Origin: Bradyrhizobium semiaridum
GTDB taxonomy: Bacteria > Pseudomonadota > Alphaproteobacteria > Rhizobiales > Xanthobacteraceae
DNA length: 64,000 nucleotides
Assembly (NCBI RefSeq): GCF_020329505.1
Contig: NZ_JAGKJJ010000004.1
Span: 186,001 to 250,000, forward strand
Reading direction: 5' to 3'
Positions 6,927 to 52,830 of the stretch are shown here, piece after piece. Every line of letters begins with the position of its first letter. The first letter of the stretch is position 1. Under the pieces are notes generated by a model, which saw only the letters and a program-made list of their open reading frames with translations, had not been told where the DNA came from and made no database searches. A program made the position numbers and the translations under genes.

Positions 6927-7002
6927 GAGGGTGTGAAGTCTTGTCCCACCCACCGCTGTCATTGCCCGGCCGCGGCTGTGTGCAGCCGCCTGTGGCTGGA
7001 AT

Positions 7003-7497
7003 TCAGGTGGGGGCTGAGATGGCGAGGCTGCCGGGGATCGGCAGCGGCGCATCCTTGGAGACGCCGAGCACCGGAAAACTTCTAATCTTGCGCACATTGG
7101 GCAAGCCCGCGAATTGCAGCAGCTGCTGGCGCATGTCGTCGACGCTGGGCGCGACGCATCTCAGCATGAAGTCGGCATCGCCGGAAATTCGCCAGCATTG
7201 TAGGAAGCGCGGCACGACCGCCACCGCTGCCTCGAAGGCCTCGATCGCGCTCAGCGTTTGGCTGTCGAGCTGAATCAGGACGAAGGTCGTGACCTCGTAG
7301 CCGAGCTGGCGCTCGTCGAGGGTTGCGCGGACCGCCTGGATCACGCCGCGGCCGCGCAGCGCACGGACCCGGCGCAAGCAGGGCGGGGCGGTGATGCCGA
7401 CCCGCGCGGCGAGCTCGTTGATCCGCATCCGGCCGTCCGTCTGCAGTTGGGACAGGATCTTGAGATCGATGTCATCGAACTGTTGGCGTTCTGTCAC
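7003..7497 (-). CDS. Lrp/AsnC family transcriptional regulator
   Basis: 164 residues. The N-terminal winged helix-turn-helix covers DIDLKILSQLQTDGRMRINE and the following LAARVGITAPPCLRRV segment (about residues 7-60); the RAM/AsnC_trans_reg effector domain follows to residue 150. The start overlaps the stop of the upstream TetR gene by four bases (ATGA), so the two regulators form one transcript. Lrp-type proteins commonly sense branched-chain amino acids, which fits the leucine-degradation genes across the divergent promoter. Effector and targets are inferred from context only. Confidence 0.93.
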   Translation of the reverse strand: MTERQQFDDIDLKILSQLQTDGRMRINELAARVGITAPPCLRRVRALRGRGVIQAVRATLDERQLGYEVTTFVLIQLDSQTLSAIEAFEAAVAVVPRFLQCWRISGDADFMLRCVAPSVDDMRQQLLQFAGLPNVRKIRSFPVLGVSKDAPLPIPGSLAISAPT

Positions 7498-8156
7498 GGG
7501 CGCTCGCCCGCCACGGCGTCCTTCACGCGCTTGCTGGCCTTGTGCGGTTCGGCTGTCACGGCCGCGCCGGCGCCGACGCCCGACAGCACCAGCTTCTCAT
7601 GCGCCGCGATGATCGCCTCGCGGGTCAGGCGGCCGCCGGGGCGATACCAAGTGCAGAGCCCGGTCAGCAGCGCCAGGATCGCGAAGGTCGCGACCTGGAT
7701 GTCGACGACCTCGAAGACGCCGTCCGCGACGCCGTCGGCGAGGATCTGCGCCAGCCGCTGCTCGTAGGCGCCGCGCAGCGCGACCACCGCGTCGTAATTC
7801 TTGGACTCGAGGCTGCGCAGCTCGGAATTGGCGATGAAGACCTCGCGCTTCCGGCTCATGTGATAGGTGACGTGGAAGGCGACGAAGGCGCGCAGCTGCT
7901 CGACCGGGTCGGTCTTGTTCTCGAGGGCAAGATCAAGCGTGCGCAGCAGATCGTTGATATGGTCCTGCACCAGATCGAACAGCAAATCCTGCTTGGTTGA
8001 GATATGATTGTAGAGCGAGCCGGCCTGGATACCGACCTCGGCGGCGAGCTGGCGCAGGCTCATCGCCTCGTAGCCGTGCTCGTAGATCAGGCGCACGCCG
8101 GCCTTGCGGATCGCTTCGAGCGTCTTCGGGCCGTGTGAGCCGATCGTGCGTGCCAT
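7494..8156 (-). CDS. TetR/AcrR family regulator of the leucine catabolic divergon
   Basis: 220 residues from ATG 8156 (MARTIGSHGPKTLEAIRKAG); a Met 16 codons upstream is open but unneeded. The TetR_N helix-turn-helix reads YEAMSLRQLAAEVGIQAGSL and continues YNHISTKQDLLF; the C-terminal ligand domain is typical in size. It is divergent from ivd and co-transcribed with the lrp-like gene. Two matching 16-bp inverted repeats lie in the intergenic region, one near each promoter, as expected for an autoregulated local repressor. TetR regulators of this position (LiuQ-like in other proteobacteria) respond to acyl-CoA intermediates; the effector here is inference. Confidence 0.92.
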   Translation of the reverse strand: MARTIGSHGPKTLEAIRKAGVRLIYEHGYEAMSLRQLAAEVGIQAGSLYNHISTKQDLLFDLVQDHINDLLRTLDLALENKTDPVEQLRAFVAFHVTYHMSRKREVFIANSELRSLESKNYDAVVALRGAYEQRLAQILADGVADGVFEVVDIQVATFAILALLTGLCTWYRPGGRLTREAIIAAHEKLVLSGVGAGAAVTAEPHKASKRVKDAVAGERP

Positions 8157-38883: not shown

Positions 38884-40314
38884 ATGACAAACCATTTCGG
38901 ACATCGATATTTGGCAGCGCCGCGCATCGCCACGCTGCCTGTTCGGCAGTTATGCCGACTGACCGCCTGGGTGCCGGCACTGTGTTTCATGACCGTGTCC
39001 GTGGCCCTCGCGCAGCAGCCATCGCCATCACCGCAAGCCGGCCCCACGGCACCCGCGCCAATTGCGGCGACGCCTACGCCTGTGCCGACACCGACAGCCG
39101 TCCCGATGCCGAGTGCCACCGCTGTGCCGCCCGTCGTCACCGTCAACATAGCGCCGTCACCGGCGAAATCGTTCGGCCAGTTGATGGTCGAGGCGTTGCC
39201 GGGCGCGATCATTGGCCTTGCGGCGGCTGTCGCCGGTACGCTGCTGGCGTGGATGATCGGGCTGCGATTGTCCGCGGGCTGGGACATGCGCAAGAAGCGC
39301 GCGGAATTCGACCAGGCGCTGGTCCAGGAATTCAACAAGGTCGTCGCTGAATTCAAGGCCGTCAGCCGTGAGCGCGAGATTCTGAACGCGCGCGTCGCCG
39401 CCACGCAAACCCCGTCCGCGGACCAGCAAAAGGCCTTCGACGAAACGCGGCGCGACCTCGTCAAGCGCGCCGTGGCTGCGGAAAGCGCGCTCGAGGCGAT
39501 CTTCCTCCGGCTGCTGTCGGAAATGGACTCCTGGCTGGCCGCGCACGGTGGCAACGCGGACCAGAAGGTGGCAGCCCGGGAACGGCAGTTGCGGTTGATG
39601 GGACTATTCCGCGTCGCGTTTCGCAATCTGAGGGAGGCGATCGTCGATGCCGCGCCGACGGCTCCCGCATTCGGCGATCCGGAACTCTGGCTGTTCAACC
39701 GGCTTGCCGCTGAGTTGTCCGGTCTCATCTACGAGCAAGCGACAGCACCGTCCCTTCCTGCATTCTGGAAACCCTGGGACATCACGTCGACGCTCGCCAG
39801 ACCGGATCCGGCGGCATATTTGCGGCTGATCGCCTATCGTACAACGGATCTCCGAATGGCGGCCGCATCGATCCTGCCGGACCTGATGGTGCTCAGTTCC
39901 CGGCGCACCGACGCACGGCGCGCCGGGCGCAAGGACAACATCGAAAGCTTGTTCGTCGCCGGCAGTGTCAAAGTGCTGGACAACCTGACCGACACGATCG
40001 ACGATAACGTTTCCCTCGCGATTCACTTCGGCGATCAGAAGGCCAATCGCGACCCTGAGATCGCGATTGTCGCCGGCGGCATTTTCCCGCGTTGGCCAAA
40101 CCTCAAATACTTCATGAGCATTTCCGACGGGCCGCCTCGGATCGTGCTGGTAAAGGCAGGTGGTGCGCTACAGACCTTTACCGAGCTCGATGTGCTTCCA
40201 CCCGATCTGCCGTATGCGCCGGATGCGTCGCATCTGGGAGCGGCCATCCTGACCTGGCAGCAAAGCCCGGCGATGATCGATGCCATCAAATCGATGGCGA
40301 CGAAGCCGCTCTAA
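38884..40314 (+). CDS. Unrecognised single-pass membrane protein with Pro/Thr-rich linker
   Basis: 476 residues. A signal-like hydrophobic segment (LTAWVPALCFMTVSVALAQ, about 27-45) leads to a Pro/Ala/Thr-rich linker with repeated PTPVP/PSPSP words (to about 90), a transmembrane helix (PGAIIGLAAAVAGTLLAWMI), a coiled-coil-like stretch RKKRAEFDQALVQEFNKVVA, then a large soluble domain with LMGLFRVAFRNLREAIVDAA and IAIVAGGIFPRWPNLKYFMS. If the first helix is cleaved, the big domain is cytoplasmic. No enzyme motif or family recognised. Single gene; its stop codon is formed by the edge of a dispersed repeat. Confidence 0.72.
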   Translation: MTNHFGHRYLAAPRIATLPVRQLCRLTAWVPALCFMTVSVALAQQPSPSPQAGPTAPAPIAATPTPVPTPTAVPMPSATAVPPVVTVNIAPSPAKSFGQLMVEALPGAIIGLAAAVAGTLLAWMIGLRLSAGWDMRKKRAEFDQALVQEFNKVVAEFKAVSREREILNARVAATQTPSADQQKAFDETRRDLVKRAVAAESALEAIFLRLLSEMDSWLAAHGGNADQKVAARERQLRLMGLFRVAFRNLREAIVDAAPTAPAFGDPELWLFNRLAAELSGLIYEQATAPSLPAFWKPWDITSTLARPDPAAYLRLIAYRTTDLRMAAASILPDLMVLSSRRTDARRAGRKDNIESLFVAGSVKVLDNLTDTIDDNVSLAIHFGDQKANRDPEIAIVAGGIFPRWPNLKYFMSISDGPPRIVLVKAGGALQTFTELDVLPPDLPYAPDASHLGAAILTWQQSPAMIDAIKSMATKPL

Positions 40315-40415
40315 AGCATGATCCGGAAAAGTGTGAAGCGGTTTTCCGAAAAGATCATGCCCAAACAAAGGGCTGAAGCGCGATGACGATTCAACCAAAT
40401 CTCATCGCGCTTTAG
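40311..40415. repeat. Dispersed palindromic element, copy 2
   Basis: 105 bases bounded by CTAAAGC and GCTTTAG, exact terminal inverted repeats. Two internal hairpins: GCATGATC/GATCATGC with nested CGGAAAA/TTTTCCG, and AAGCGCGATGA/TCATCGCGCTT. Matches copy 1 at 5110-5213. Its left TAA is the stop codon of the preceding membrane protein. Confidence 0.9.
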
Positions 40416-40463
40416 CGGCGCGGGTGTGGGTAAGGCAAGGGAAAGTCTTTCAGCGGATCCTCT

Positions 40464-40820
40464 CTATGGCTTGTCTTCCGGACGGCCTGCGTCCAGGTCT
40501 TCGCCCTTGGGTGGCTCTGCAAGCTTCTTCATATTGACGTAACGCCGCTTCTCATCCGGCGTGATTGACTCGCCCGGACGCCCCGCGAGGTCGGCCGCGA
40601 CCTCGAACGGATCGGCATGATAAAATGCCGTTTGAGTGTCGGGCGATGCACCGTCGACGTTCTTGCGAAGGTCATCCGCGACGGAAGAATCTGAACGGAA
40701 CACATCCGTCATAATGTCTTTCACGCGGCGCCAATATTCGTTCTTGAACTGCTCGTTCAGAGGCTCGCCTCGGCGCACGATTTCATAGTTGCCTTCAGGT
40801 GACTTAATCTCCGCGATCAT
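40464..40820 (-). CDS. Hypothetical partner protein of the DUF3990 gene (possible antitoxin)
   Basis: 118 residues from ATG 40820, with TGGAGGTCTC upstream. Acidic and charged: NYEIVRRGEPLNEQFKNEYW, VKDIMTDVFRSDSSVADDLR, then FYHADPFEVAADLAGRPGES and a Glu/Pro/Asp-rich tail. No DNA-binding or catalytic motif. It starts 46 bases after the stop of the DUF3990 gene and is therefore its likely operon partner. It is not recognisably the DUF3791 protein that accompanies DUF3990 in other bacteria. An antitoxin or immunity role is inference. Confidence 0.68.
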   Translation of the reverse strand: MIAEIKSPEGNYEIVRRGEPLNEQFKNEYWRRVKDIMTDVFRSDSSVADDLRKNVDGASPDTQTAFYHADPFEVAADLAGRPGESITPDEKRRYVNMKKLAEPPKGEDLDAGRPEDKP

Positions 40821-40866
40821 GAGACCTCCATGCAGTTCCAGACCATGCCCGGGCAAGTGTCCGTGA

Positions 40867-41412
40867 TCAGAACATGCCGCCATTGGCGGGCGAGCCGGTC
40901 GAATGAATAACTGGAGCTTTCAGGCCGCGCACCGCGCGCTGCGTGTGAAAGCTGATTTGATCGCAATCCTGGATCACCAGCCGCTGCGGCCAGATCGTCA
41001 CGGGTCCGTAAACCACATCATAGCACACATTATGCGGAGCCATTCGCTGATGCGGGGTGAACCCGTTACGGCAATCGTTCACGAGATCCCAGAAATCGTT
41101 GATCGGCCGCACGAAAGCCAGCGTCTCGAGTGACGCCAGCCAGTCCCGGCTGAGCCCGAACTCCAGCACAATCGCACACCGCGCCGTCCCGGTCGGAGCC
41201 AACGTACGAACGATGCGAGCATTTGCCCATTGCTGTGCCTGGTGAAGGGACGTTGTGCAGTAGAAGCCCTGTCCGAAATCCGTGAAGGGACGGCAATGGG
41301 CGAGGTTGATCGTCAACGATAAACCGTAGCCCGGGCGCTGGCCTTGTGCGCCGACGGAGATATCATCGGTTCCGTGGTACAGGACGATATCCTTGTTGCC
41401 CCAAACCGGCAT
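40867..41412 (-). CDS. DUF3990 domain protein, ADP-ribosyltransferase-like (possible toxin)
   Basis: 181 residues from ATG 41412 with a GGGGG-type site upstream; a Met ten codons earlier is possible. Near the start is DIVLYHGTDD; in the middle FGQGFYCTTSLHQAQQWANA; near the end VVYGPVTIWPQRLVIQDCDQ followed by ISFHTQRAV. YHGxD, GFYxTTxxxQAxxWA and QISFHTxxA are the recurring blocks of DUF3990, a family with an ADP-ribosyltransferase-like fold often found in toxin-antitoxin style pairs. The His of YHG and Tyr of GFY would correspond to NAD-binding residues. Activity here is inference; the modest GC of this stretch supports acquisition. Confidence 0.78.
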   Translation of the reverse strand: MPVWGNKDIVLYHGTDDISVGAQGQRPGYGLSLTINLAHCRPFTDFGQGFYCTTSLHQAQQWANARIVRTLAPTGTARCAIVLEFGLSRDWLASLETLAFVRPINDFWDLVNDCRNGFTPHQRMAPHNVCYDVVYGPVTIWPQRLVIQDCDQISFHTQRAVRGLKAPVIHSTGSPANGGMF

Positions 41413-41512
41413 GTGCGAGCCCCCGCGATGTCGCCCGTTCATACCGCATGGCGTGTAACGTGTCTAGCCATCAACCACAGGGTGATCGCGGACCGAACCC
41501 TCGTCGCCCGCC

Positions 41513-43201
41513 TTACGAACCCCCGGCCGCCGGGGCCGGAAGCTCCGCGGCTGCGGCGGCAGCTTCCCGAATGGCCGCGAGCTCGCCGGCGGCATCCAGC
41601 ACGGGATAGGCCACCGAGCAGATATGCGAATGGATGCGGCGGAGGTCGCGCAGCACGTCGAGATGCAGCGAGGTGGTCTCGATGGTCTCGGGACGGCCTT
41701 CGCGCAGCCGCTCGAGATGGCGGTCGACGGCGGCGAGTTCGGCGGCGCGCAGTGCGGCTTTCTCGGTCAGCAGCTTGCGCGCCTCGCTGGCGTCGCCCGA
41801 CATGAACACGCCGAACGCAAGCCGCAGCGAGTCGATGGTCCGCCTGTGGAACGCTGACAATTCCTCGGCGCCTTCGGCCGAGAAATGCATGCGGTGCTTG
41901 ATCTTCTTGGTCGCCAGCTCGCTCAGATTCTTGTCGATGATGTCGCCGACATGCTCGAGATTGATCGCGAAGGCGACGATCTCCATCGCGCGCTGGCCCT
42001 CGCGCTCGTCGAGGCTGCCGCGGGTCAGCTTGGTCACGTAGAGCTTGATCGCCTCGTTCAGGCTATCGACGGTGTTGTCCATCTTGGACACCTGGTCGAC
42101 CAGCGCGCGGTCGTTGGTCGTCATTGCCGCCATCACCTTGCGCAGCATGGCCTCGACATGGTCGCCCATGTACAGCACCTCTCGCGCGGCGTCGGCCAGT
42201 GCGAGCGACGGCGTCTCCAGCGCGCTCTCGTCGATATAGCGCGGCCGCGACGGATCGGTCTCCTGCGCCCGCTTCGGCAGCAGGCGCTCGAGCAACCGCG
42301 CCATGGTGTCGAGCACGCCGATGAAGAGCGCCGCGGTGGCGACGTTGAACGCGATGTGGAACAGGGCGGTCGCCTTGGCGAGGTCAGGTTGCCACGCCTC
42401 GACATGCTCGGTGATCGGACGCAGGAACGGCGCCACCAGCGCGATGCCAATCAGGCGGTTGACGAGATTGCCGATCGGCAGGCGGTAGCTCGCCGGATTG
42501 TCGCGCCGGGCGCCTTCCAGCAGCGGATTGATGGCGCTGCCGAGATTGGCGCCGAGCACCAGCGCGAACGCCGCATAGGGCGAGATGAACTGCGAATAGG
42601 CCAGCGACATCACCAGCAGGACGCTGGCGACGCTGGAATGCACCAGCCAGGTGACGACGGCACCGATCAGGATGCACAGCACGGGATCGCCGGTGATCGC
42701 GGCCATGAAGACGCGCACCCCGGGCGCGCTCTCGGCCGGCGCCAGCGTGTCGAGCAGGATGTGCAGCGCCAACAGCATCAGGCCGAGCCCGATCGAGACG
42801 CGGCCGAGATCCTTGATCCGGGAGCGCGGTCCGCTGCGGAACGCGACCAGCCCGACGATGAACAGCACGGGGGCCACCGCCGCGACATTGAACGACAGCA
42901 CCTGCACGATCAGGGTGGTGCCGACATTGGCGCCGAGCATGATGGCGAGCGCCGGCGCCAGGCTGACCAGCCCTTCGGCGGCGAACGAGCTGGTGATCAA
43001 GGCGGTCGCGGTCGAGCTCTGGAGCAGGGCGGTCAGGCCGAGGCCGGCGGCGAACGCGGAGAAGCGGTTGTGCAGCGCCTTGGCCAGGAAGAGCCGCAGG
43101 TCGGGCCCGAAGGCGCGCAGAATCCCACTGTGGACCATGTGCAGGCCCCACAGCAGGAGGGCGACGCCCCCCATCAGATCGAGCAGAACGATGCTTCCCA
43201 T
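41513..43201 (-). CDS. Na/Pi-cotransporter family protein with PhoU-like C-terminus
   Basis: 562 residues from ATG 43201 (MGSIVLLDLMGGVALLLWGL), preceded by GAAGGAAG; the 55 codons open upstream lack support. Two inverted Na_Pi_cotrans repeats carry the QSS motifs: GLTALLQSSTATALITSSFA in repeat one and, in repeat two, LVHSSVASVLLVMSLAY with Gln replaced by His. A C-terminal PhoU-like helical domain (about 330-550) follows. It probably moves phosphate with sodium, with the PhoU part regulating. Single gene. Confidence 0.92.
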   Translation of the reverse strand: MGSIVLLDLMGGVALLLWGLHMVHSGILRAFGPDLRLFLAKALHNRFSAFAAGLGLTALLQSSTATALITSSFAAEGLVSLAPALAIMLGANVGTTLIVQVLSFNVAAVAPVLFIVGLVAFRSGPRSRIKDLGRVSIGLGLMLLALHILLDTLAPAESAPGVRVFMAAITGDPVLCILIGAVVTWLVHSSVASVLLVMSLAYSQFISPYAAFALVLGANLGSAINPLLEGARRDNPASYRLPIGNLVNRLIGIALVAPFLRPITEHVEAWQPDLAKATALFHIAFNVATAALFIGVLDTMARLLERLLPKRAQETDPSRPRYIDESALETPSLALADAAREVLYMGDHVEAMLRKVMAAMTTNDRALVDQVSKMDNTVDSLNEAIKLYVTKLTRGSLDEREGQRAMEIVAFAINLEHVGDIIDKNLSELATKKIKHRMHFSAEGAEELSAFHRRTIDSLRLAFGVFMSGDASEARKLLTEKAALRAAELAAVDRHLERLREGRPETIETTSLHLDVLRDLRRIHSHICSVAYPVLDAAGELAAIREAAAAAAELPAPAAGGS

Positions 43202-43454
43202 GCTTCCTTCATCTTCCCCGGCAAATGCGCGTCGAAAGCCGGCCGAATTCGAGTCGAAGGGGGCGAACTTATTGCCAATCGCCCGCCGATCAACCCCTTT
43301 TTGTTCTCGTGGAACCGGGCTGTGGAGGGCGCGTGCGGTAAACGAACCTGCAAGACAACCGCTCAATTGTGCGGGGTTCCGCTAGGCAGTTTCCAATCTT
43401 TCCCCGCTATCACGGTTGGACGCGAATTTGTCTAGCGAGGGCTTGGGGATCAGG

Positions 43455-43700
43455 ATGTTTGTGAATCGCCGCAAGAGCGAACGTCGTGTGTGCCGGAGCG
43501 TTGCCAAGATCCAGATCGGGACCGGCTCGCTTCCGAGGGATTGCATGATCACCGATATCTCGTCCGGCGGGGTCAAGGTGATCGCTGAATATCTGGAGAT
43601 TCCTCCGGAATTCACCATCATCTTCTCGAGCGGCAGCCCCCGTCAGTGCCGTCTGGCGTGGCGGATCGGGCACGAATTCGGCGCCCAGTTCGTCGACTGA
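43455..43700 (+). CDS. PilZ domain protein
   Basis: 81 residues from ATG 43455 (GGGGATCAGG before it); an upstream TTG at 43416 would add 13 residues. The single PilZ domain shows RRKSERR at the start and DISSGG near residue 37, equivalent to the RxxxR and D/NxSxxG motifs that bind c-di-GMP. The C-terminal half is a beta barrel ending RIGHEFGAQFVD. It probably links c-di-GMP to surface behaviour; the neighbouring Tad pilus genes are a possible target. Monocistronic. Confidence 0.85.
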   Translation: MFVNRRKSERRVCRSVAKIQIGTGSLPRDCMITDISSGGVKVIAEYLEIPPEFTIIFSSGSPRQCRLAWRIGHEFGAQFVD

Positions 43701-43849
43701 TCGCGACACACGGGACCGGCTCGGCCGCGCCGCCGCAGGCCCGGCGGGCCGTCAGCCGTTGGTATGACGGCGGCATGCTGTCGGCCTTAACCCGCCCTTA
43801 GGGTTAAACTGTGAGCATCCCGGAACCTTCGCTGTTCCGAGTCCCGTTG

Positions 43850-45307
43850 ATGCTTCAGAAATCATCCCGAACGCCTGGCCGCGTCAGCCGTCTTGCAGGC
43901 ACGGTATCCGCCGCGATCGTGCTGATCGGGCTGTCCGCCTGCCAGACCTCGGGTCCATCCGACATCACGGGGTCATTGGGCGAGCCCGCGGAAACCGGCC
44001 AGGCGTCGGCCGATCCAAGGCGCGACATCGAGAGCTATCACGAGCGCGTCCGCGCCAACCCGAAGGATGCCGACGCCGCGCTGAAATACGCCAAGGCGCT
44101 GCGCGCCACCGGCCAGCGCGCGCAGGCGGTCGCCGTGCTGGAGCAGGCAGTGCTGGGCCAGCCCGGCAACAAGGCGCTGCTCGCGGGTTATGGACGGGCA
44201 CTCGCCGACAACGGCAATTTCCAACAAGCCTTCGACGTGCTCGGCCGCGCCCATACGCCGGAGGATCCGGACTGGCGCATCCTGTCGGCGCAAGGCGCCG
44301 TGCTCGACCAGATGGACCGCCATGACGAGGCCCGCCAGTACTACTCGAGCGCGTTGAAGATCGTGCCGGACGAAGCGTCGGTGCTCTCCAATCTCGGCCT
44401 GTCCTATCTGCTCGCCAAGGACCTGCCGATGGCCGAGGAGACGCTGCGCCGCGCCCAGAAGCGTGCGCCCGGCGATGCGCGCGTGCGCAACAATCTGGCT
44501 CTGGTGGTGGGCCTGCAGGGCCGCCAGTCCGAGGCGGAGACCATCGTGAAGGCGGACCTGTCGCCGGACCAGGGCGCGACCAATGTCGCCGCGCTGAAGC
44601 GGCTGCTGGCGCGCAGCAAGGAAGCGAACCGCGCGGACGCGGACAGGATCCCGGTCGCAGCCAGTCGCCGCGACCAGCCGGCAGTCGAACGGAATGGTGG
44701 CGATCGGCTGGCTCTCGATGGTCTTGGCGAATTCCTTGACCTCGATCTCGGGGCGCTTCGGCATGCCGACCTGGTTCAGGCAGTACAGCGGCGGCCGGTC
44801 GTTGGGCCGCGCCGATTTCAGCGTGTTCAGCATGTTCTTGGTGTTGCGCAGATTGGCGAGGTCGGGCTCGGCGACGATCAGGATGTCGTCGGCGCCGACC
44901 AGCGTGCGCTTGGTCCAGGCGGTCCATTGATGCGGGACGTCGAGCACGACGCAGGAGGTGGTCATGCGCATGGTGTCGAAGATGGCTTCGAACGCATCGG
45001 CGCCGAAATCATAGACTTGATCGAGCGTAGCGGGCGCTGCCAGCAGGCTGAGATGGTCGCTGCATTTGGCGAGCAGGCGTTCCATATAGGCGGTGTCCGG
45101 GCGCTCGGGCGAGAACACCGCGTTGGCGATGCCCTGCACGGGGTCCTGGTTGTAGTCGAGGCCGGCGGTGCCGAAGGCGAGATCGAGATCGATCACGACG
45201 GAATCGAGCCCGAGGTCGCGCGCGATGGTCCAGGCGACGTTGTGGGCGACGCTGGAAGCGCCGACGCCGCCCTTCGCGCCGGTGACGGCGATGATACGGC
45301 CGACTGA
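43850..45307 (+). CDS. tadD: TadD tetratricopeptide lipoprotein with an abnormal antisense-derived tail
   Basis: The Tad-like part runs from ATG 43850 (a GTG at 43811 is also possible) to about 44674, some 275 residues. It has a lipoprotein signal with lipobox LSAC, then four or so TPR units (AALKYAKALRATGQRAQAVA, VLSNLGLSYLLAKDLPMAEE, ARVRNNLALVVGLQGRQSEA), as in TadD, the pilotin-like assembly factor of tight-adherence pili. From 44675 to the stop at 45307 the frame reads the antisense of cpaE, adding about 210 low-complexity residues that are not TadD. The true stop codon has been lost at a rearrangement junction. Confidence 0.75.
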   Translation: MLQKSSRTPGRVSRLAGTVSAAIVLIGLSACQTSGPSDITGSLGEPAETGQASADPRRDIESYHERVRANPKDADAALKYAKALRATGQRAQAVAVLEQAVLGQPGNKALLAGYGRALADNGNFQQAFDVLGRAHTPEDPDWRILSAQGAVLDQMDRHDEARQYYSSALKIVPDEASVLSNLGLSYLLAKDLPMAEETLRRAQKRAPGDARVRNNLALVVGLQGRQSEAETIVKADLSPDQGATNVAALKRLLARSKEANRADADRIPVAASRRDQPAVERNGGDRLALDGLGEFLDLDLGALRHADLVQAVQRRPVVGPRRFQRVQHVLGVAQIGEVGLGDDQDVVGADQRALGPGGPLMRDVEHDAGGGHAHGVEDGFERIGAEIIDLIERSGRCQQAEMVAAFGEQAFHIGGVRALGREHRVGDALHGVLVVVEAGGAEGEIEIDHDGIEPEVARDGPGDVVGDAGSADAALRAGDGDDTAD

Positions 45308-45751
45308 AGCCTCGTCGGAGGTGGAGAACAGGCTGCAGATCGTGCGTACGATGTCGAGCACCTTGAAGGGGCCGACGACATAGTCGTTGACGCCGCGCCG
45401 CACCAGCTCGCGATAGGGCGCGACGTCGCCGGCGCTGCCGAGCACGACGACGCGGGTGCCGGGATCGCAGACGGTCGCGAGCTCGTCGAGGCCGGCGAGG
45501 AAGTCCTGGTCGGGCTCGGTCTCCAGCATGATGACGTTGGGCGTCGGAGCCTTGTGGTAGGCGTCGATCGCCGCCGTGATGCCGCCCATATGGACCGAGA
45601 GGTGAGCCTTGGCGAGCCGGCGGTCCTCGGCGGCGGCGCGCGCCGCTGCGGCGGTCGCGACGGTGGCGCAGAACGCCTGCACGGAGATTCGCGGCGCCGG
45701 CGCGATGTAATCGTCGGCGTGCGAAGGCTCGTCTTGCTGTGGGGCGGTCAT
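44675..45751 (-). pseudogene. cpaE: Truncated CpaE/TadZ-like pilus localisation ATPase
   Basis: From ATG 45751 (ATGA overlap with cpaD) the product matches CpaE for 359 residues: a receiver-like N-terminal domain (VIMLETEPDQDFLAGLDELA), the deviant Walker A TGAKGGVGASSVAHNVAW, VVIDLDLAFGTAGLDYNQDP and LYCLNQVGMPKRPEIE. It then stops matching right after IATIPFDCRL; roughly 60 C-terminal residues are missing and the frame runs on through the antisense of tadD to 43973. CpaE places the Tad machine at the cell pole. Loss of its end and of cpaF, tadB and tadC next to it suggests the pilus system is broken. Confidence 0.82.
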
Positions 45752-46470
45752 TTCGCGGCGTCGCTCAGCTTGGCCTTGTCGGTTTCGGGATAGGTGGTCG
45801 TGGTCGGCTCGCCCTTGCGGTAGCGGTCGAACGCCACGGTGCGGCGCGGCGTGTAGGCCGCGGTCTCGGTGCGCGGCTGCTCGAGGTCGGACGGATTGGC
45901 GACCATGGCGGCGAGGTTGCGCTGCGTGGCGCAGCCGAAATTGTCGAACTGCTTGTTCTGGTTGTAATTGGGATTGTCGATCGAGGGGCCGAGATCGGCC
46001 GGCCACAGGCCGCACGGGCCGGCGACGGCCGCCATCTTGGGATAACTGAGGCGGATGGTGGCGAGCGCACGCGGATCGTCCGACGGGTAGGTGCGCTTGA
46101 CGATGGCGTGCGCGGGCACGCCCATCGATGCCAGCAGGCCGCGGATATCCTGATAGACCGCCTGCGCGGAGCGCGCGTTCGGCGTGTCGACGGGAACGTC
46201 GATCGCGATCGCGCCGGTGCCTTCGCGGCGCCAGCTGCGCGCCAGCCCCATCACGTCGTCGCGCTGCGGCTCGGTCAGGTTGCCGCGGCTGCGGCCGACG
46301 AACACCACGATCGACTGCTCACCTTCGGTGATCGCGATCGGATGGCGCTGACGGTAATTGTCCGGCGGGATCGTTCCGGTGACGGTATCGCCGGTCAGGT
46401 TGCAGCCGCCGAGCGCGATCGCCGCAGCGAGGAGGGCGCCGGCACCGGCGGTCTTTGTGGTGCGTGTCAT
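45748..46470 (-). CDS. cpaD: CpaD pilus lipoprotein
   Basis: 240 residues from ATG 46470, with GGGGGATC upstream. The lipoprotein signal has lipobox LGGC. The CpaD/TadO domain follows with RQRHPIAITEGEQSIVVFVG, an OmpA-like SYPKMAAVAGPCGLWPADLG and the typical NFGCATQRNLAAMVANPSDL. It is an outer-membrane accessory of the CpaC secretin. It overlaps cpaE by four bases and lies 29 bases after cpaC, so it belongs to the cpaBCDE transcript. Confidence 0.93.
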   Translation of the reverse strand: MTRTTKTAGAGALLAAAIALGGCNLTGDTVTGTIPPDNYRQRHPIAITEGEQSIVVFVGRSRGNLTEPQRDDVMGLARSWRREGTGAIAIDVPVDTPNARSAQAVYQDIRGLLASMGVPAHAIVKRTYPSDDPRALATIRLSYPKMAAVAGPCGLWPADLGPSIDNPNYNQNKQFDNFGCATQRNLAAMVANPSDLEQPRTETAAYTPRRTVAFDRYRKGEPTTTTYPETDKAKLSDAAK

Positions 46471-46499
46471 CGTTCGATCCCCCAGGCTGAGCCGCAACG

Positions 46500-47972
46500 T
46501 CAGTCGATGATGAAGCCGAAATTGACCGGCGTGGCCCCGACCGGTTCGGCACGGGCGGCGACGCCGTAGAGGCGATTGATGCGTCCGAGCAGCGCCGACT
46601 GCGCATCAGACGCCGGCGCAAATCCGTCATCGGGGCGCGACAGCTCCTTCTGGGCGACCGCGCGCACCACGTAGGGCGTCACGATGACCATCAGCTCGGT
46701 CTCGTTGTTGACGAAGTCCTGGCTGCGGAACAGCTGGCCGAGCACCGGGATCTGATCGACGCCGGGCATGCCGTTGATCGCCTGTTTGGTCTGCTGCTGG
46801 ATCAGGCCGGCCATCGCGATCGAGCCGCCGGACGGGACTTCCAGCGTGGTGTCGGCGCGGCGGGTCTTGATCGAGGGGATCGTGGTGCCGCCGGCGCCGC
46901 CGGTGAGCGCGTTCTCGGTCGAGACTTCGGAGACTTCCGTCATCACCTTCAGGCTGATGCGTCCCTCGGACAGCACCACCGGCGTGAAGTTAAGCGAGAT
47001 GCCGAATTTCTTGAAGCTGACGGTCTGCACGCAATTGCCGATCGCGCCCGAGGTCGAGGTCTGGCAGGTCACGCCGGTCGGGATCGGAAACTCGCCGCCC
47101 GACACGAAGGTCGCGGACTCGCCGGAGATCGCCGTGAGATTGGGTTCGGCCAGCGTCTTGACCACGCCGGCGCTTTCCATCGCGCGCAGCGTTGCGGTCA
47201 CCGAGGCCTGGCCCAGCTTGTTGAGGGCCGCGCCGGTCAACTGATTGGCGACCAGCGGGCCGCTATTCGCGGTGAACGGGTTGCTGTTGTTGAACACCAC
47301 GGCCGCAGTGCCGAAGTTCATGCTGGCGCTGAGATCGACGCCGAGCTGCTTGATGACGTCGCGCCGCACCTCCGCCACGGTGACCTTGAGCATCACCTGG
47401 TCGCGGCCGCGCACCACGATCGAGTTGACGACCTTGTCGGCGCTGCCGACCAGCTTGGCGGCGACGTCGCCGGCCTGCTGGGCCTCGATCGGGCTGGCCA
47501 CCGTGCCGGTCAGCACCACGCTGTCGCCGACGCCCTCGATATTGACGCCCGGCAGCATCTGCTTCAGCGCCGAGCGCATGCCGTTGAGGTCGCGCTTGAT
47601 CGCGATGTCGTAGGAGCCGACCTGCTGGCCCTCGGCATCGAAGAACACGACGTTGGTCTGGCCGACCGCGGCGCCGATGATGTAGGCGCGCTGCGCCGAG
47701 CGGATCACCGCGTTGGCGATCTTGGGATCGGCGACCAGCACGTCCTTGGCTTCGCGCGGCAGGTCGACCACGACCGACTTGCCGACGCCGAGCGAGAGGA
47801 AGCGGGTCTTGACGGGAAGGCCGCCGGTGACCGCGATATCGGCGTTCTTGTCGGTATCGGCGGCGATCGCCGGTGCCAGGATCGGCAGCAGCATCAGCGC
47901 AGCGACGGCCGTGAAGGGTAGGGCGCGGGCCCGTGCGCTCCGCATCGTGAATTGTCGCGCAGCCGATGTCAT
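46500..47972 (-). CDS. cpaC: CpaC/RcpA type II/IV secretin
   Basis: 490 residues, with a signal peptide (PFTAVAALMLLPILAPAIAA), an N-terminal secretin domain with BON-like segment (VNIEGVGDSVVLTGTVASPI), and the secretin core (AMESAGVVKTLAEPNLTAIS, FVSGGEFPIP, IPVLGQLFRSQDFVNNETEL, MVIVTPYVV). It forms the outer-membrane pore of the Tad pilus. A GGGGGC site lies before the start; 13 bases separate it from cpaB. Confidence 0.95.
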   Translation of the reverse strand: MTSAARQFTMRSARARALPFTAVAALMLLPILAPAIAADTDKNADIAVTGGLPVKTRFLSLGVGKSVVVDLPREAKDVLVADPKIANAVIRSAQRAYIIGAAVGQTNVVFFDAEGQQVGSYDIAIKRDLNGMRSALKQMLPGVNIEGVGDSVVLTGTVASPIEAQQAGDVAAKLVGSADKVVNSIVVRGRDQVMLKVTVAEVRRDVIKQLGVDLSASMNFGTAAVVFNNSNPFTANSGPLVANQLTGAALNKLGQASVTATLRAMESAGVVKTLAEPNLTAISGESATFVSGGEFPIPTGVTCQTSTSGAIGNCVQTVSFKKFGISLNFTPVVLSEGRISLKVMTEVSEVSTENALTGGAGGTTIPSIKTRRADTTLEVPSGGSIAMAGLIQQQTKQAINGMPGVDQIPVLGQLFRSQDFVNNETELMVIVTPYVVRAVAQKELSRPDDGFAPASDAQSALLGRINRLYGVAARAEPVGATPVNFGFIID

Positions 47973-47985
47973 GTCGAAGCCCCCA

Positions 47986-48789
47986 TCACTTCTGTGTCGT
48001 CTGAGAGCTGGGCACGCCGTAGCGCACCACCCTGATGCTCTCGCCCCGCTTCGGGGCCTGGTCGTTGTTCGCGATCTCGTCCGGCTTCTCGTTGGCGTCG
48101 ACGATGCTGCGCAGCGCCAGCGTGACGATGCCGCTCTGCCGGGCCCGTGCCAGCGTCTCGGCCTGCTCCGGCTTGAGCTCGAGGGTTACGGTCTTGCCGA
48201 CCAGCGAGTTGCTGCCGTCCTTCTCCTTCGGCGCCTGGTCGATCGCGAGCACGCGGACGTTGGCCAGCAGGACTTCGGTCGAGACGACGTCGGTGCCGGA
48301 CTTGTCGGGATTCTTCTCGCGCTTGGAGAAGATCACGTCGACGCGGTCGCCGGGCAGGATGAAGCCGCCGGCGCCGGTCTCCGGCGAAATTTCGGTGGAG
48401 ATCGCGCGCATGCCGGACGGCAGGATCGCGGCCATGAAGCCGCTGCCATTGGCCTTCACCAGCTTCTGCTCGCGGATCGGTTCGCCGACGATGAAGGGGA
48501 AGCGCGCGATCGAGCCGATCACGTCCTTCATCGCATCGGGATTGGTGTCCTGGCGCAGGAAAGCGGTGCTGGCGGTCTCGGCCGGCCAGCGCTGCCATTG
48601 CAGATCTTCCGGCTTGATCGCCTGGCCGAGGCCGATGTCGGTCTTGGCCACCAGCACCTCGACGGTCGGCAATTGCACGACCGGCGGCGCGACGGCCACC
48701 GGTTTCTGTTCGCCCACGCTCGCGAGATAGGTGGCCGCGAGGCCTGCGACGCCGGCAATGGCGAGGACCACGATGCGTGCCGTCTTCAT
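47986..48789 (-). CDS. cpaB: CpaB/RcpC pilus assembly protein
   Basis: 267 residues. An N-terminal membrane anchor (ARIVVLAIAGVAGLAATYLA) leads to a SAF domain (LVAKTDIGLGQAIKPEDLQW) and the RcpC domain with ISPETGAGGFILPGDRVDVI. CpaB acts at the periplasmic base of the secretin. First gene of the cpaBCDE operon. Prepilin (flp), prepilin peptidase cpaA and tadE/G are not upstream here; the region beyond encodes metC. Confidence 0.94.
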   Translation of the reverse strand: MKTARIVVLAIAGVAGLAATYLASVGEQKPVAVAPPVVQLPTVEVLVAKTDIGLGQAIKPEDLQWQRWPAETASTAFLRQDTNPDAMKDVIGSIARFPFIVGEPIREQKLVKANGSGFMAAILPSGMRAISTEISPETGAGGFILPGDRVDVIFSKREKNPDKSGTDVVSTEVLLANVRVLAIDQAPKEKDGSNSLVGKTVTLELKPEQAETLARARQSGIVTLALRSIVDANEKPDEIANNDQAPKRGESIRVVRYGVPSSQTTQK

Positions 48790-48975
48790 GCGACTGACTG
48801 AATGCCCTTGCAGCGGGCGGTCGCGACCTTGCGGTGCTGACAGCCCTTCCCGAGAGCATGACTACGGCCGCAAAAGTATAAGGGAACTTGCCAGCAGCTC
48901 CTGCTGATTAAGGGATTGGTGGGGATGGTGAACGGCTGGTTAGTGGTGCGGCCGCATCTCCGCAGAATCCCGGAG

Positions 48976-49000
48976 GTTGCGCGCGAACGATGCGCGCAAC
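48976..49000 (-). terminator. Perfect hairpin downstream of metC
   Basis: GTTGCGCGC (48976-48984) and GCGCGCAAC (48992-49000) form a perfect 9-bp stem with a 7-base loop. It lies 68 bases after the metC stop on the minus strand, but no U-tract follows. It is either a rho-independent-like terminator or a protein-binding palindrome upstream of cpaB. Confidence 0.5.
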
Positions 49001-49067
49001 GCCCACCGCGGCGCGCGATGCACGCGCGGATCGGCCGTGGTTAATATCGTCTAACGCGCGCGGCGGA

Positions 49068-50264
49068 TCAGAGCGCGGCCTTCAGCGCCGCGAAGCCGCG
49101 ATCGAGATCGGCCTTGAGGTCGTCGACATTCTCGAGCCCGATATGCAGCCGCAGCATGGGCCCGCCGGGTGCCCATTTGGTCGCGGTACGATACTCGCTG
49201 CAGTCGAACGGGATCGCCAGACTCTCGAAGCCGCCCCAGGAAAAACCCATGCCGAATAGTTTGAGCGTGTTGAGCATGGTGTCGACGGCCTGCTGCGGCG
49301 CGGGCTTCAGCACGATGCTGAACAGGCCGGAGGCGCCGGTGAAGTCGCGCTTCCAGATCGCGTGGCCCGGATCGCTCTCGAGGCCGGGATGCAGCACGCG
49401 CGCGACCTCGGGGCGGGCGGCGAGCCAGCGCGCCATCTCGAGGCCGGACTGGTGATGCTGCGCGAGCCGCACCGACAGCGTGCGCACGCCGCGCAGCGCG
49501 AGATAGACATCGTCGGGGCCGGCACAGACGCCGAGCAGGCGGATCGCCTCGCTGACCAGCGGCCAGGCCCTGGCATTCGCCGAGATGGTGCCGAACATGA
49601 TGTCGGAATGACCGCCGATATATTTGGTGCCGGCCTGCATGCTGATGTCGACGCCCTGTTCGAGCGAGCGGTGATACAACGGCGTCGCCCAAGTGTTGTC
49701 GTCGATCACGAGCGCGCCGTGTGCATGCGCCGCCGCCGCGATCGCACGTATGTCAGGCATCTCGAAGGATTGCGAGCCCGGCGCCTCGACCAGCACCGCG
49801 CGGGTGTTCGGCTTGAACAGCGCTGCGATGCCGGCGCCGATCATGGGATCGAAATAGTCGGTCTCGATGCCGAGGCGCTTGAGCATGCCGTTGCAGAAAT
49901 TGCGCGTCGGCCGGTAGGCGTTGTCGCAGACCAGTAGATGGTCGCCGGCTTTGAGCACCGCGAGCAGCGTGGTCGAGATCGCGGCCAGTCCCGACGGGGC
50001 GAGGCCGACGCCGGCGCATTGCGGCCCCTCCAGCGCCATCAGCACGTCCTGTAGCGCGCGCGTCGTCGGAGAGCCGTGACGGCCATAGGTAAACTCGGCG
50101 CGGTGGGCGTGCAGGTCCTCGGCGGTCGGGTAGAGCACCGTCGAGCCGTGGAATACCGGCGGATTGACAAAACCCTTCTGGGCCTTGGTGTCGCGGCCGG
50201 CCGTGACCAGGCGGGTCGCGGCATGCTGCGGGCGGGAGGGGTCGGAGCCGTCGGAGGAGGTCAT
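49068..50264 (-). CDS. metC: Cystathionine beta-lyase
   Basis: 398 residues from ATG 50264. PLP-dependent Cys/Met metabolism fold type I enzyme that splits cystathionine to homocysteine, pyruvate and ammonia in methionine synthesis. Evidence: TRLVTAGRD start, YGRHGSPTTRALQDVLMALE, the PLP-lysine motif with Lys214 in MQAGTKYIGGHSD, and the C-terminal SWGGFESLAIPFD and RLHIGLENVDDLKADLDRGF. The SWGGFESL signature and spacing are those of bacterial MetC rather than of MetB or MetZ. The frame is open upstream without similarity. Confidence 0.93.
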   Translation of the reverse strand: MTSSDGSDPSRPQHAATRLVTAGRDTKAQKGFVNPPVFHGSTVLYPTAEDLHAHRAEFTYGRHGSPTTRALQDVLMALEGPQCAGVGLAPSGLAAISTTLLAVLKAGDHLLVCDNAYRPTRNFCNGMLKRLGIETDYFDPMIGAGIAALFKPNTRAVLVEAPGSQSFEMPDIRAIAAAAHAHGALVIDDNTWATPLYHRSLEQGVDISMQAGTKYIGGHSDIMFGTISANARAWPLVSEAIRLLGVCAGPDDVYLALRGVRTLSVRLAQHHQSGLEMARWLAARPEVARVLHPGLESDPGHAIWKRDFTGASGLFSIVLKPAPQQAVDTMLNTLKLFGMGFSWGGFESLAIPFDCSEYRTATKWAPGGPMLRLHIGLENVDDLKADLDRGFAALKAAL

Positions 50265-50584
50265 GAGGTCGTCGCCATTAGACTTTTTGCCACCGGCCTC
50301 GCGCGTCGGGAGGACCACAGCCGGGGAGCTGTTACTAACAGGACGCGGAAGAGCCACGTCAACCCCTTGACCCGGCACGTCAGTCGCTATGTGATGCGCC
50401 GCAACTACCAGTCGCCGCACGTTGAGGGGCTTGCCGCGACCTGCGATCCGTTGCCTGACCGCCGTGCACGTCCAGATTGCCGGCCGGCTCAGTCCTATCA
50501 GCCGCAGGGGATCCATTGGGCTGGCCCGTGAACGCGAGGCGATCGCACGTAAACGTCCAACGGACGACCCCTGAAAGGCTGCCC
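50265..50584. other. Divergent promoter region between metC and aapJ
   Basis: 320 bases with no supported gene. A 46-codon frame on the plus strand (near 50392-50531) has no good ribosome site. TTGACC near 50372 may be a -35 element for aapJ, without a clear -10 at the right spacing. Confidence 0.4.
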
Positions 50585-51601
50585 ATGAAACGCGTTTCCC
50601 TGGTTTTGACATTTGCCGCTGTCGCCGCCCTGTCGGCTCAAGCCGCCTCGGCGCAAACCCTCAAGACGGTCAAGGAGCGGGGTCAGCTGTCCTGCGGCGT
50701 CAGCGGCGGCCTGCCGGGCTTCTCGACGCCCGATGACAAGGGCAACTGGACCGGCATCGACGTCGATCTGTGCCGCGGCATCGCCGCGGCGATCTTCGAC
50801 GATCCGACCAAGGTCAAGTTCGTGCCGCTGTCGGCCAAGGACCGCTTCACGGCGCTGCAGTCCGGCGAGATCGACGTGCTGTCGCGCAACACCACCTGGA
50901 CGCTGTCGCGCGACACCTCGCTCGGCGCCAACTTCACCGGCGTGACCTATTACGATGGGCAGGGTTTCCTGGTGAAGAAGTCGCTGAAGGTGAACTCGGC
51001 GCTGGAGCTGAACAGCGCCTCGGTCTGCGTGCAGACCGGCACCACGACCGAGCAGAACCTCGCCGACTACTTCAAGGGCAACAACATGAAGTATGAGGTG
51101 ATTGCGTTCGCCGGCGCCGACGAGACCGTGAAGGCCTACGAGACCGGCCGCTGCGACGTGTTCACGTCGGACGTCTCCCAGCTCTACGCGCAGCGCCTCA
51201 AGCTCGCCAACCCGGCGGATCACGTCGTGCTGCCCGAGGTGATCTCCAAGGAGCCGCTCGGCCCGATGGTGCGCCACGGCGACGACCAGTGGTTCGACAT
51301 CGTCAAATGGGTGCTGTTCGCCCAGATCAATGCCGAGGAGCTCGGCGTCAACATGAAGAACGTCGACGAGATGGCGAAGTCCGACAAGCCGGACCTGAAG
51401 CGCGCCTTCGGCACCGACGGCAATCTCGGCGAACAGCTCGGCCTGACCAAGGACTGGTTCTCACGGATCATCAAGGCGGTCGGCAATTACGGCGAGATGT
51501 ATGACCGCAACGTCGGCGCCGGCTCGAAACTGCAGATCGCGCGCGGGCTCAACAATCTCTGGAGCAAGGGCGGCATCCAGTACGCGCCTCCGATCCGCTG
51601 A
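50585..51601 (+). CDS. aapJ: General L-amino acid ABC transporter, substrate-binding protein
   Basis: 338 residues from ATG 50585. Signal peptide MKRVSLVLTFAAVAALSAQA followed by the SBP_bac_3 fold: RGQLSCGVSGGLPGFSTPDD, GIDVDLCRGIAAAIFDDPTK, the ligand-contact LSRNTTWTLSRDTSLGANFT, and DVFTSDVSQLYAQRL. This is close to AapJ, the periplasmic receptor for the broad-range amino acid permease central to rhizobium-legume amino acid exchange. First gene of aapJQMP. Confidence 0.95.
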   Translation: MKRVSLVLTFAAVAALSAQAASAQTLKTVKERGQLSCGVSGGLPGFSTPDDKGNWTGIDVDLCRGIAAAIFDDPTKVKFVPLSAKDRFTALQSGEIDVLSRNTTWTLSRDTSLGANFTGVTYYDGQGFLVKKSLKVNSALELNSASVCVQTGTTTEQNLADYFKGNNMKYEVIAFAGADETVKAYETGRCDVFTSDVSQLYAQRLKLANPADHVVLPEVISKEPLGPMVRHGDDQWFDIVKWVLFAQINAEELGVNMKNVDEMAKSDKPDLKRAFGTDGNLGEQLGLTKDWFSRIIKAVGNYGEMYDRNVGAGSKLQIARGLNNLWSKGGIQYAPPIR

Positions 51602-51624
51602 TCGGCGACGAGGCGGCTGCGGCG

Positions 51625-52830
51625 ATGACGTCTGAGCCCCGAAAACCACCGCCGCAATTCATCTTCCGCCTGAAGCGGATGCTGGGCGGCAAGTCCGGCT
51701 GGACCGGACTTGCCGTGCAGATCGTGTTCGCCGCGGTGCTGGCCTGGGTCGCCTATGAGATCGTGGCCAATGCCCGCGCCAATCTGGAGACGCAGCGCAT
51801 CGCCTCCGGATTCGGCTTCATGAGGAATACCGCGGGCTTCGACGTCAGCCTGAACCTGATCCCGTATTCGGGATCGGACACCTATACGCGGGTGTTCCTG
51901 GTCGGCCTGCTGAACACGCTGCTGGTCGCGGTGATCGGCATCGTGTTCGCCACCATCATCGGCTTCATCCTGGCGCTGTGCCGGCTGTCGCCGAACTGGC
52001 TCTTGGCGCGGATCGGCGAGATCTATGTCGAGACCGTGCGCAACCTGCCGCTGCTGTTCCAGCTGTTGTTCTGGTATCTTGCGGTGCTGGCGGCGCTGCC
52101 GGGCCCGCGCCAGAGCATCTCGCTGTTCAACGCCTTCTTCCTCTCCAACCGCGGCCTCGTGATCCCGAAGCCGATCGGCGAGCCGGGTCTCGATCCGTTC
52201 CTGGCCGCGATCGCGATCGGCATCGTCGGCGCGCTCGTGCTGCGCAGCTATGCCCGGCGGGCGCTGTTCCAGCGCGGGCAGGCGATCCGGATCTGGCCCT
52301 ATGTGCTGGGCCTCGTGTTCGGCTTGCCGCTCGTGACGATGCTGGTGTTCGGGGTGCCGCTGACTTTCGAAATGCCGCAATTGAAGGGCTTCAACTTCGC
52401 CGGCGGGGCGCGGTTCATTCCGGAGCTGGTGGCGCTCTTGGTCGCGCTGTCGACCTACACCGCGGCCTTCATCGCCGAGATCGTCCGCGCCGGCATCCTG
52501 TCCGTTCACAAGGGCCAGATGGAGGCCGGCTCGTCGCTCGGCCTGTCGCGCGGCGCCACGCTGCGGCTGATCGTGGTGCCGCAGGCGATGCGCGTGATCG
52601 TGCCGCCGCTGACCAACCAGTATCTCAACCTGACCAAGAACTCGTCGCTGGCGGTCGCGATCGGCTATCCCGACCTGGTCTCGGTGTTCGCCGGCACCAC
52701 GCTGAGCCAGACCGGGCAGGCGATCGAGATCATCGCCATCACGATGGGCGTCTATCTGATGATCTCGCTGGTCACCAGCTCGGTCATGAGCGTCTATGGC
52801 TGGCGCATCAACCGGAGCCTGGAGGCATGA
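51625..52830 (+). CDS. aapQ: General L-amino acid ABC transporter, permease
   Basis: 401 residues. HisM-type permease with the AapQ/BztB architecture: an N-terminal anchor ([20 protein letters not shown]), a long periplasmic loop, the permease core with [20 protein letters not shown] and [16 protein letters not shown], and the EAA-like loop [20 protein letters not shown]. It pairs with AapM in the membrane. It starts 23 bases after aapJ and overlaps aapM by four. Confidence 0.95.

Follow-up and report, generated by a model that had tools for sequence, protein, structure and literature searches.

A probable small, strain-specific deletion joins cpaE and tadD in the partial Tad cluster 1 of Bradyrhizobium semiaridum

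Results

A Tad locus in which tadD and cpaE meet without an intergenic base

Our analysis covered a 64,000-nucleotide stretch of the Bradyrhizobium semiaridum draft genome (here, the window; contig NZ_JAGKJJ010000004.1, positions 186,001 to 250,000), which carries a group of Tad pilus genes. On the minus strand lie cpaB (47986..48789; TIGR03177, 3.2e-73, over the cut-off), the secretin gene cpaC (46500..47972; PF00263, 3.5e-43; PF13629, 4.3e-19), and cpaD (45748..46497; PF09476, 1.2e-65; TIGR02522, over the cut-off), each of them open throughout, followed by cpaE (44675..45751), which encodes a TadZ-type ATPase. Converging on these genes from the plus strand is tadD (43850..44674), encoding a TPR protein of 275 codons (Pfam TPR matches) that is complete to its last residue and has no stop codon. 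A small PilZ-domain gene (43416..43700, plus strand; PF07238, 1.1e-05) sits just upstream of tadD and is a conserved neighbor: it has a match in 97 of the 99 relative loci described below, and of the 96 loci that show both genes, all have it on the strand of tadD and 94 have it no more than 1 kb away from tadD. PilZ domains bind c-di-GMP. In B. diazoefficiens, Tad pili have been linked to c-di-GMP levels (PMC12918737).

The window thus has the secretin CpaC, CpaB, and CpaD of a Tad (type IVc) pilus locus. As the initial annotation had stated, the locus holds no cpaF, tadB, or tadC; using the proteins of a complete cluster on contig C3 of the same genome as queries (E ≤ 1e-3), we found no match to the motor CpaF or the platform proteins TadB and TadC in the window. 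There was likewise no match to the prepilin peptidase CpaA in the window or in the 99 relative loci, and the three matches to the Flp pilin family PF04964 in the genome fall on contigs C3, C66, and C46, with none in the window.

At the junction (44674..44675), the last codon of tadD (44672-44674) directly adjoins the last native codon of cpaE (Leu359, 44677-44675), with 0 bp between them and both stop codons absent. The tadD frame runs on in antisense to cpaE for 210 codons before it stops at 45305-45307 (44675..45307, plus strand), and the cpaE frame runs on in antisense to tadD for 233 codons to a stop at 43975-43973 (43973..44674, minus strand). The sequence therefore reads as first described, with zero intergenic bases, both stops lost, and each frame passing through the antisense of the other. 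There is no N in 44001-45500, and terminator scans found none in the window at 44300-45100 or at 7000-7800 of the corresponding locus of the nearest relative, Bradyrhizobium tropiciagri SZCCT0294 (L074).

What was lost at this junction differs between the two genes. TadD is 93% identical to its L074 counterpart and ends in ...SRRD, the same as in the nearest relatives; every residue is kept and only the stop codon is gone, contrary to the earlier suggestion that the tadD end had been deleted. TadD has been described as a secretin pilotin (PMC10934763, PMC13170226). CpaE is 97% identical to L074 CpaE over residues 1 to 358 and breaks off after codon 359 of about 419, so that its final 60 codons and its stop are missing; compared with L074 CpaE (419 amino acids [aa]) it is 60 residues short, which agrees with the initial estimate of about 60.

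The ATPase part of CpaE is present and its C terminus is missing

The CpaE of the window matches PF13614 over the cut-off, indicating that the ParA/MinD-type ATPase part is present, and the L074 protein matches PDB entries 4n0p (the CpaE N-terminal part) and 3ea0 (a ParA-family ATPase), in keeping with a receiver-like N-terminal part ahead of the ATPase. The conserved C-terminal block of CpaE/TadZ proteins is absent, all residues after 359 being deleted. This lost segment includes 12 residues that are invariant in a 38-row alignment, the paralogue on C3 included. Caulobacter CpaE has been described as having a C-terminal amphipathic helix that probably binds the membrane (PMC13170226). The hydrophobic moment over the last 45 CpaE residues is only suggestive of the same: the best 11-mer ranks first in L074 and within the top 10 in 22 of 38 proteins. 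Predicted models of the whole and truncated CpaE were of low confidence, with mean pLDDT values of 58.4 and 54.2. Because the conserved C-terminal block has been lost, we take the cluster 1 CpaE of this strain to be non-functional, a prediction made from sequence.

Long antisense frames are expected from codon register

The tadD and cpaE frames are in codon register, such that only TTA, CTA, or TCA codons in the partner gene would stop the run-on. There is one such codon in the 359 of the window cpaE and there are two in the 275 of the window tadD. The double read-through is thus unremarkable, since codon register, through codon bias, leaves few stopping codons. When we extended the tadD frame into cpaE in 96 distinct relatives, it stayed open for a median of 351 codons, compared with 210 in the window; the cpaE frame extended into tadD stayed open for a median of 225 codons in 95 relatives, compared with 233. 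Apparent cases of tadD running into cpaE in L125, L145, L146, and L153 were rejected, as these were tblastn matches that had passed the stops; read from the start, all four genes have normal stops.

These comparisons bear on whether CpaE and TadD are made with new antisense-coded tails that selection has kept. Frames open for 210 and 233 codons are what such a functional fusion would need, yet run-ons of this kind are the default of codon register, with 62 of the 96 relatives running at least 211 codons into cpaE, and the fusion would have come at the cost of 12 residues that do not vary among 38 CpaE proteins. We consider this reading very unlikely. Harder still to credit, with the open frames as its sole support, is a version in which the mutually antisense genes with their read-through tails, giving complementary RNA and two chimeric proteins, are used as a switch for a spare secretin locus.

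Related loci lack the motor genes and have whole cpaE and tadD ends

The initial annotation proposed a single deletion that took out cpaF-tadB-tadC together with the ends of cpaE and tadD. To examine this proposal we compared the locus with 99 relative loci, 19 from same-genus genomes and the best 80 of 147 further matches; the strains partly overlap, and the 99 loci hold 95 distinct CpaE proteins. None of the 99 contains cpaF, tadB, tadC, or cpaA at E ≤ 1e-15, nor at E ≤ 1e-3. In the 98 loci in which tadD is in view (the exception being L122, a 4.7-kb contig), it is always convergent with cpaE, tail to tail, and stops before reaching it. The stop-to-stop gap ranges from 0 to 5010 bp with a median of 38 bp, and is 250 bp or less in 93 of 98. 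CpaE is full length (414 to 429 residues) in all 99, compared with 359 native codons in the window.

Five loci (L056, L061, L106, L107, and L112) have 1.6 to 5.0 kb between cpaE and tadD. An ancestral motor in these gaps was considered and rejected, as they hold no CpaF, TadB, or TadC match; the gap open reading frames (ORFs) of L106, L056, L107, and L112, named by eye, seem unrelated to pili. L061 and L106 appear to represent the same strain.

A single large deletion from a complete Tad cluster in this lineage does have a plausible template, in that cpaE and tadD of the paralogous locus on C3 are about 3.7 kb apart, in the order cpaE-cpaF-tadB-tadC followed by a convergent tadD. However, none of the 99 loci has a motor, the gaps are short in relatives with whole genes, no TadD residue was lost, and the cluster has been published as partial (PMC12918737). 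For this lineage in particular, L074 and L075 keep whole cpaE and tadD ends with no motor between them. We therefore regard this scenario as highly improbable: the loss of the cpaE end stands, while cpaF-tadB-tadC would not have been taken with it. Because none of the 99 loci has a motor and the cluster is published as partial, motor loss from loci of this kind appears to be ancient, and it may have been an old, separate event at the origin of the cluster.

As to the remaining genes, best tblastn matches did not find cpaB in 4 of the 99 loci (one of them a short contig) and recovered part of it in 2 others, one of which is truncated at a contig end; cpaC was partial in 2, which are the same contig twice, and cpaD in 1. 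The cpaB and cpaC gaps in L064, L067, L068, L097, and L059/L108 are perhaps scattered wear of a spare cluster.

Gene content and a cpaE tree assign the locus to partial Tad cluster 1

Nearly all Bradyrhizobium genomes are described as carrying a Tad cluster 1, a partial cluster that has no pilin and only some of the export components and that probably goes back to a duplication of cluster 2, the complete one, in a common ancestor (PMC12918737). On the basis of gene content and of a cpaE tree that includes the B. diazoefficiens strain L134, the window locus matches this cluster. It has cpaBCDE with a convergent tadD, is motor-less, and is orthologous to the genus-wide copy; a full-length CpaE and a separate tadD stop are missing from it. 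In the tree (129 CpaE proteins, quick method without bootstrapping), a branch with SH-aLRT support of 99 separates the 95 motor-less-type proteins from the remaining 34 rows, of which 16 are C3-type and 18 come from other genera. The window CpaE groups with that of L074 (SH-aLRT 99) inside the motor-less side.

Consistent with two copies per genome, two cpaE places were counted by eye in all of the 35 other same-genus genomes that were inspected for this. In a family sample of 198 genomes, the 11 of this genus (its own included) each have two CpaE matches at E ≤ 1e-60 (counted by eye); outside this genus, 140 genomes have a match, and in all but one of them it is the only one. A further 47 of the 198 have no CpaE match at this threshold. 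In one family member from another genus, a pair of CpaE matches lies on a single contig, separated by about 6 kb (G398:C104:295-8585).

Cluster 1 of B. diazoefficiens USDA 110 (Iglesias et al. 2026, PMC12918737) resembles the window locus in being partial and cluster 2-like, with no pilin and an incomplete export apparatus, as far as the published description goes. Unlike cluster 1 of USDA 110, the window has a truncated cpaE and a tadD with no stop.

Complete motor sets lie elsewhere in the genome

A genome-wide search for cpaF, tadB, and tadC identified cpaF and two platform genes as a set on each of two contigs, C3 and C88. In all, there are 6 PF00437 and 10 PF00482 matches in the genome, every one on a contig other than that of the window. 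The cluster on C3 (L051), of the cluster 2 type, is complete, with cpaA-B-C-D-E-F-tadB-tadC and a convergent tadD at the far end. It shares the cpaB-C-D-E order with the window, and its CpaE is 73% identical to the window CpaE. It differs in having cpaA, cpaF, tadB, tadC, and a nearby Flp pilin gene (C3:18655), and in its full-length CpaE of 422 aa. The Tad-type cluster on C88 (L053) has, besides the motor and two platform genes, cpaA-, cpaB-, cpaE-, and secretin-like genes (ORFs named by eye). Its gene order is different and its sequences are distant, so it is no copy of the window locus; it is perhaps the sporadic cluster 3 of PMC12918737. The view that a secretin had been left without a motor accordingly applies to the locus and not to the cell.

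A small loss, found in one genome

Compared with L074, the junction lacks 430 bp, including 244 bp of intergenic sequence; compared with L054, the loss is 213 bp. Zero bases are shared at the breakpoint when it is judged from L074, and the microhomology suggested by a 7-base alignment overlap was rejected on these grounds. From 38906 to 51753 (about 13 kb), the window is collinear with L074, and the junction is the sole loss; about 150 bp at 40314-40458 are present in the window and absent from L074. When 265 same-genus genomes were searched for a 30-mer spanning the junction, allowing up to 3 mismatches, this genome alone gave a match; such a search would miss distant versions. A limited literature search turned up no paper on the junction.

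The intergenic stretch of L074 (7260-7510) contains a dispersed inverted (hairpin) repeat of about 140 bp, which is common in this genome and makes up all but one of 80 segment matches (both strands counted). As these repeat matches crowded our first search for the missing stretch (first 40 of 233 candidates scored), we searched again using just the cpaE end (first 40 of 174 scored). Among the candidates scored, the missing cpaE end was found in the assembly only as a 76% paralogue on C3.

The uniqueness of the junction raises the question as to whether the true cpaE end is whole and a few hundred bases around the repeat were lost during assembly. The genome is known from a single draft assembly of 120 contigs, the repeat that L074 has here is common in this genome and is of a kind that can trouble assemblers, and the junction occurs in 1 of 265 same-genus genomes. 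Against this, the junction is in coding sequence, outside the repeat, with no N and with at least about 58 kb of contig on either side, and the non-repeat cpaE end is found nowhere else in the assembly among the candidates scored. We judge such a local error to be unlikely, with a small but appreciable chance of being correct, and we infer that the deletion is real. Of the mis-join offered as the main alternative in the initial annotation, only this local form is a possibility; a join between distant loci is very unlikely because the flanks are collinear with L074 and the lost cpaE end was found, among the candidates scored, only as the 76% paralogue.

The dN/dS values of the five locus genes against L074 are 0.075 to 0.27. 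Although this is a weak test, it gives no indication of decay beyond the junction, and the deletion would therefore have to be recent, as the sequence comparison suggests.

Discussion

Taken together, our results favor, with a probability of about 0.8, a reading in which the window holds the genus-wide partial cluster 1, long ago duplicated from the complete cluster 2, with one small strain-specific deletion of about 0.2 to 0.43 kb. Cluster 1 would consist of cpaB-cpaC-cpaD-cpaE and a convergent tadD, having no motor, platform, prepilin peptidase, or pilin. In this strain, one deletion would have taken the last 60 cpaE codons with the stop, the intergenic stretch, and the tadD stop. TadD may still work, carrying a 210-residue nonsense tail, and the cell would tolerate a broken cluster 1 because cluster 2 makes the pilus. 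Cluster 1 mutants of B. diazoefficiens were reported to resemble the wild type in biofilm formation, swimming, and twitching (PMC12918737), so that at most a mild effect is to be expected here.

The finding is an ordinary one, and the deletion is much smaller than was first proposed. A truncation confined to one strain, in a locus that is itself a partial duplicate, has little importance by itself, and it sets right the inference of a strain deprived of its Tad motor. If real, it provides a naturally occurring cluster 1 cpaE mutant. The dN/dS values of the five locus genes between L074 and L075 are 0.14 to 0.35, and such a mutant bears on the question of why a motor-less Tad locus stays under purifying selection across the genus.
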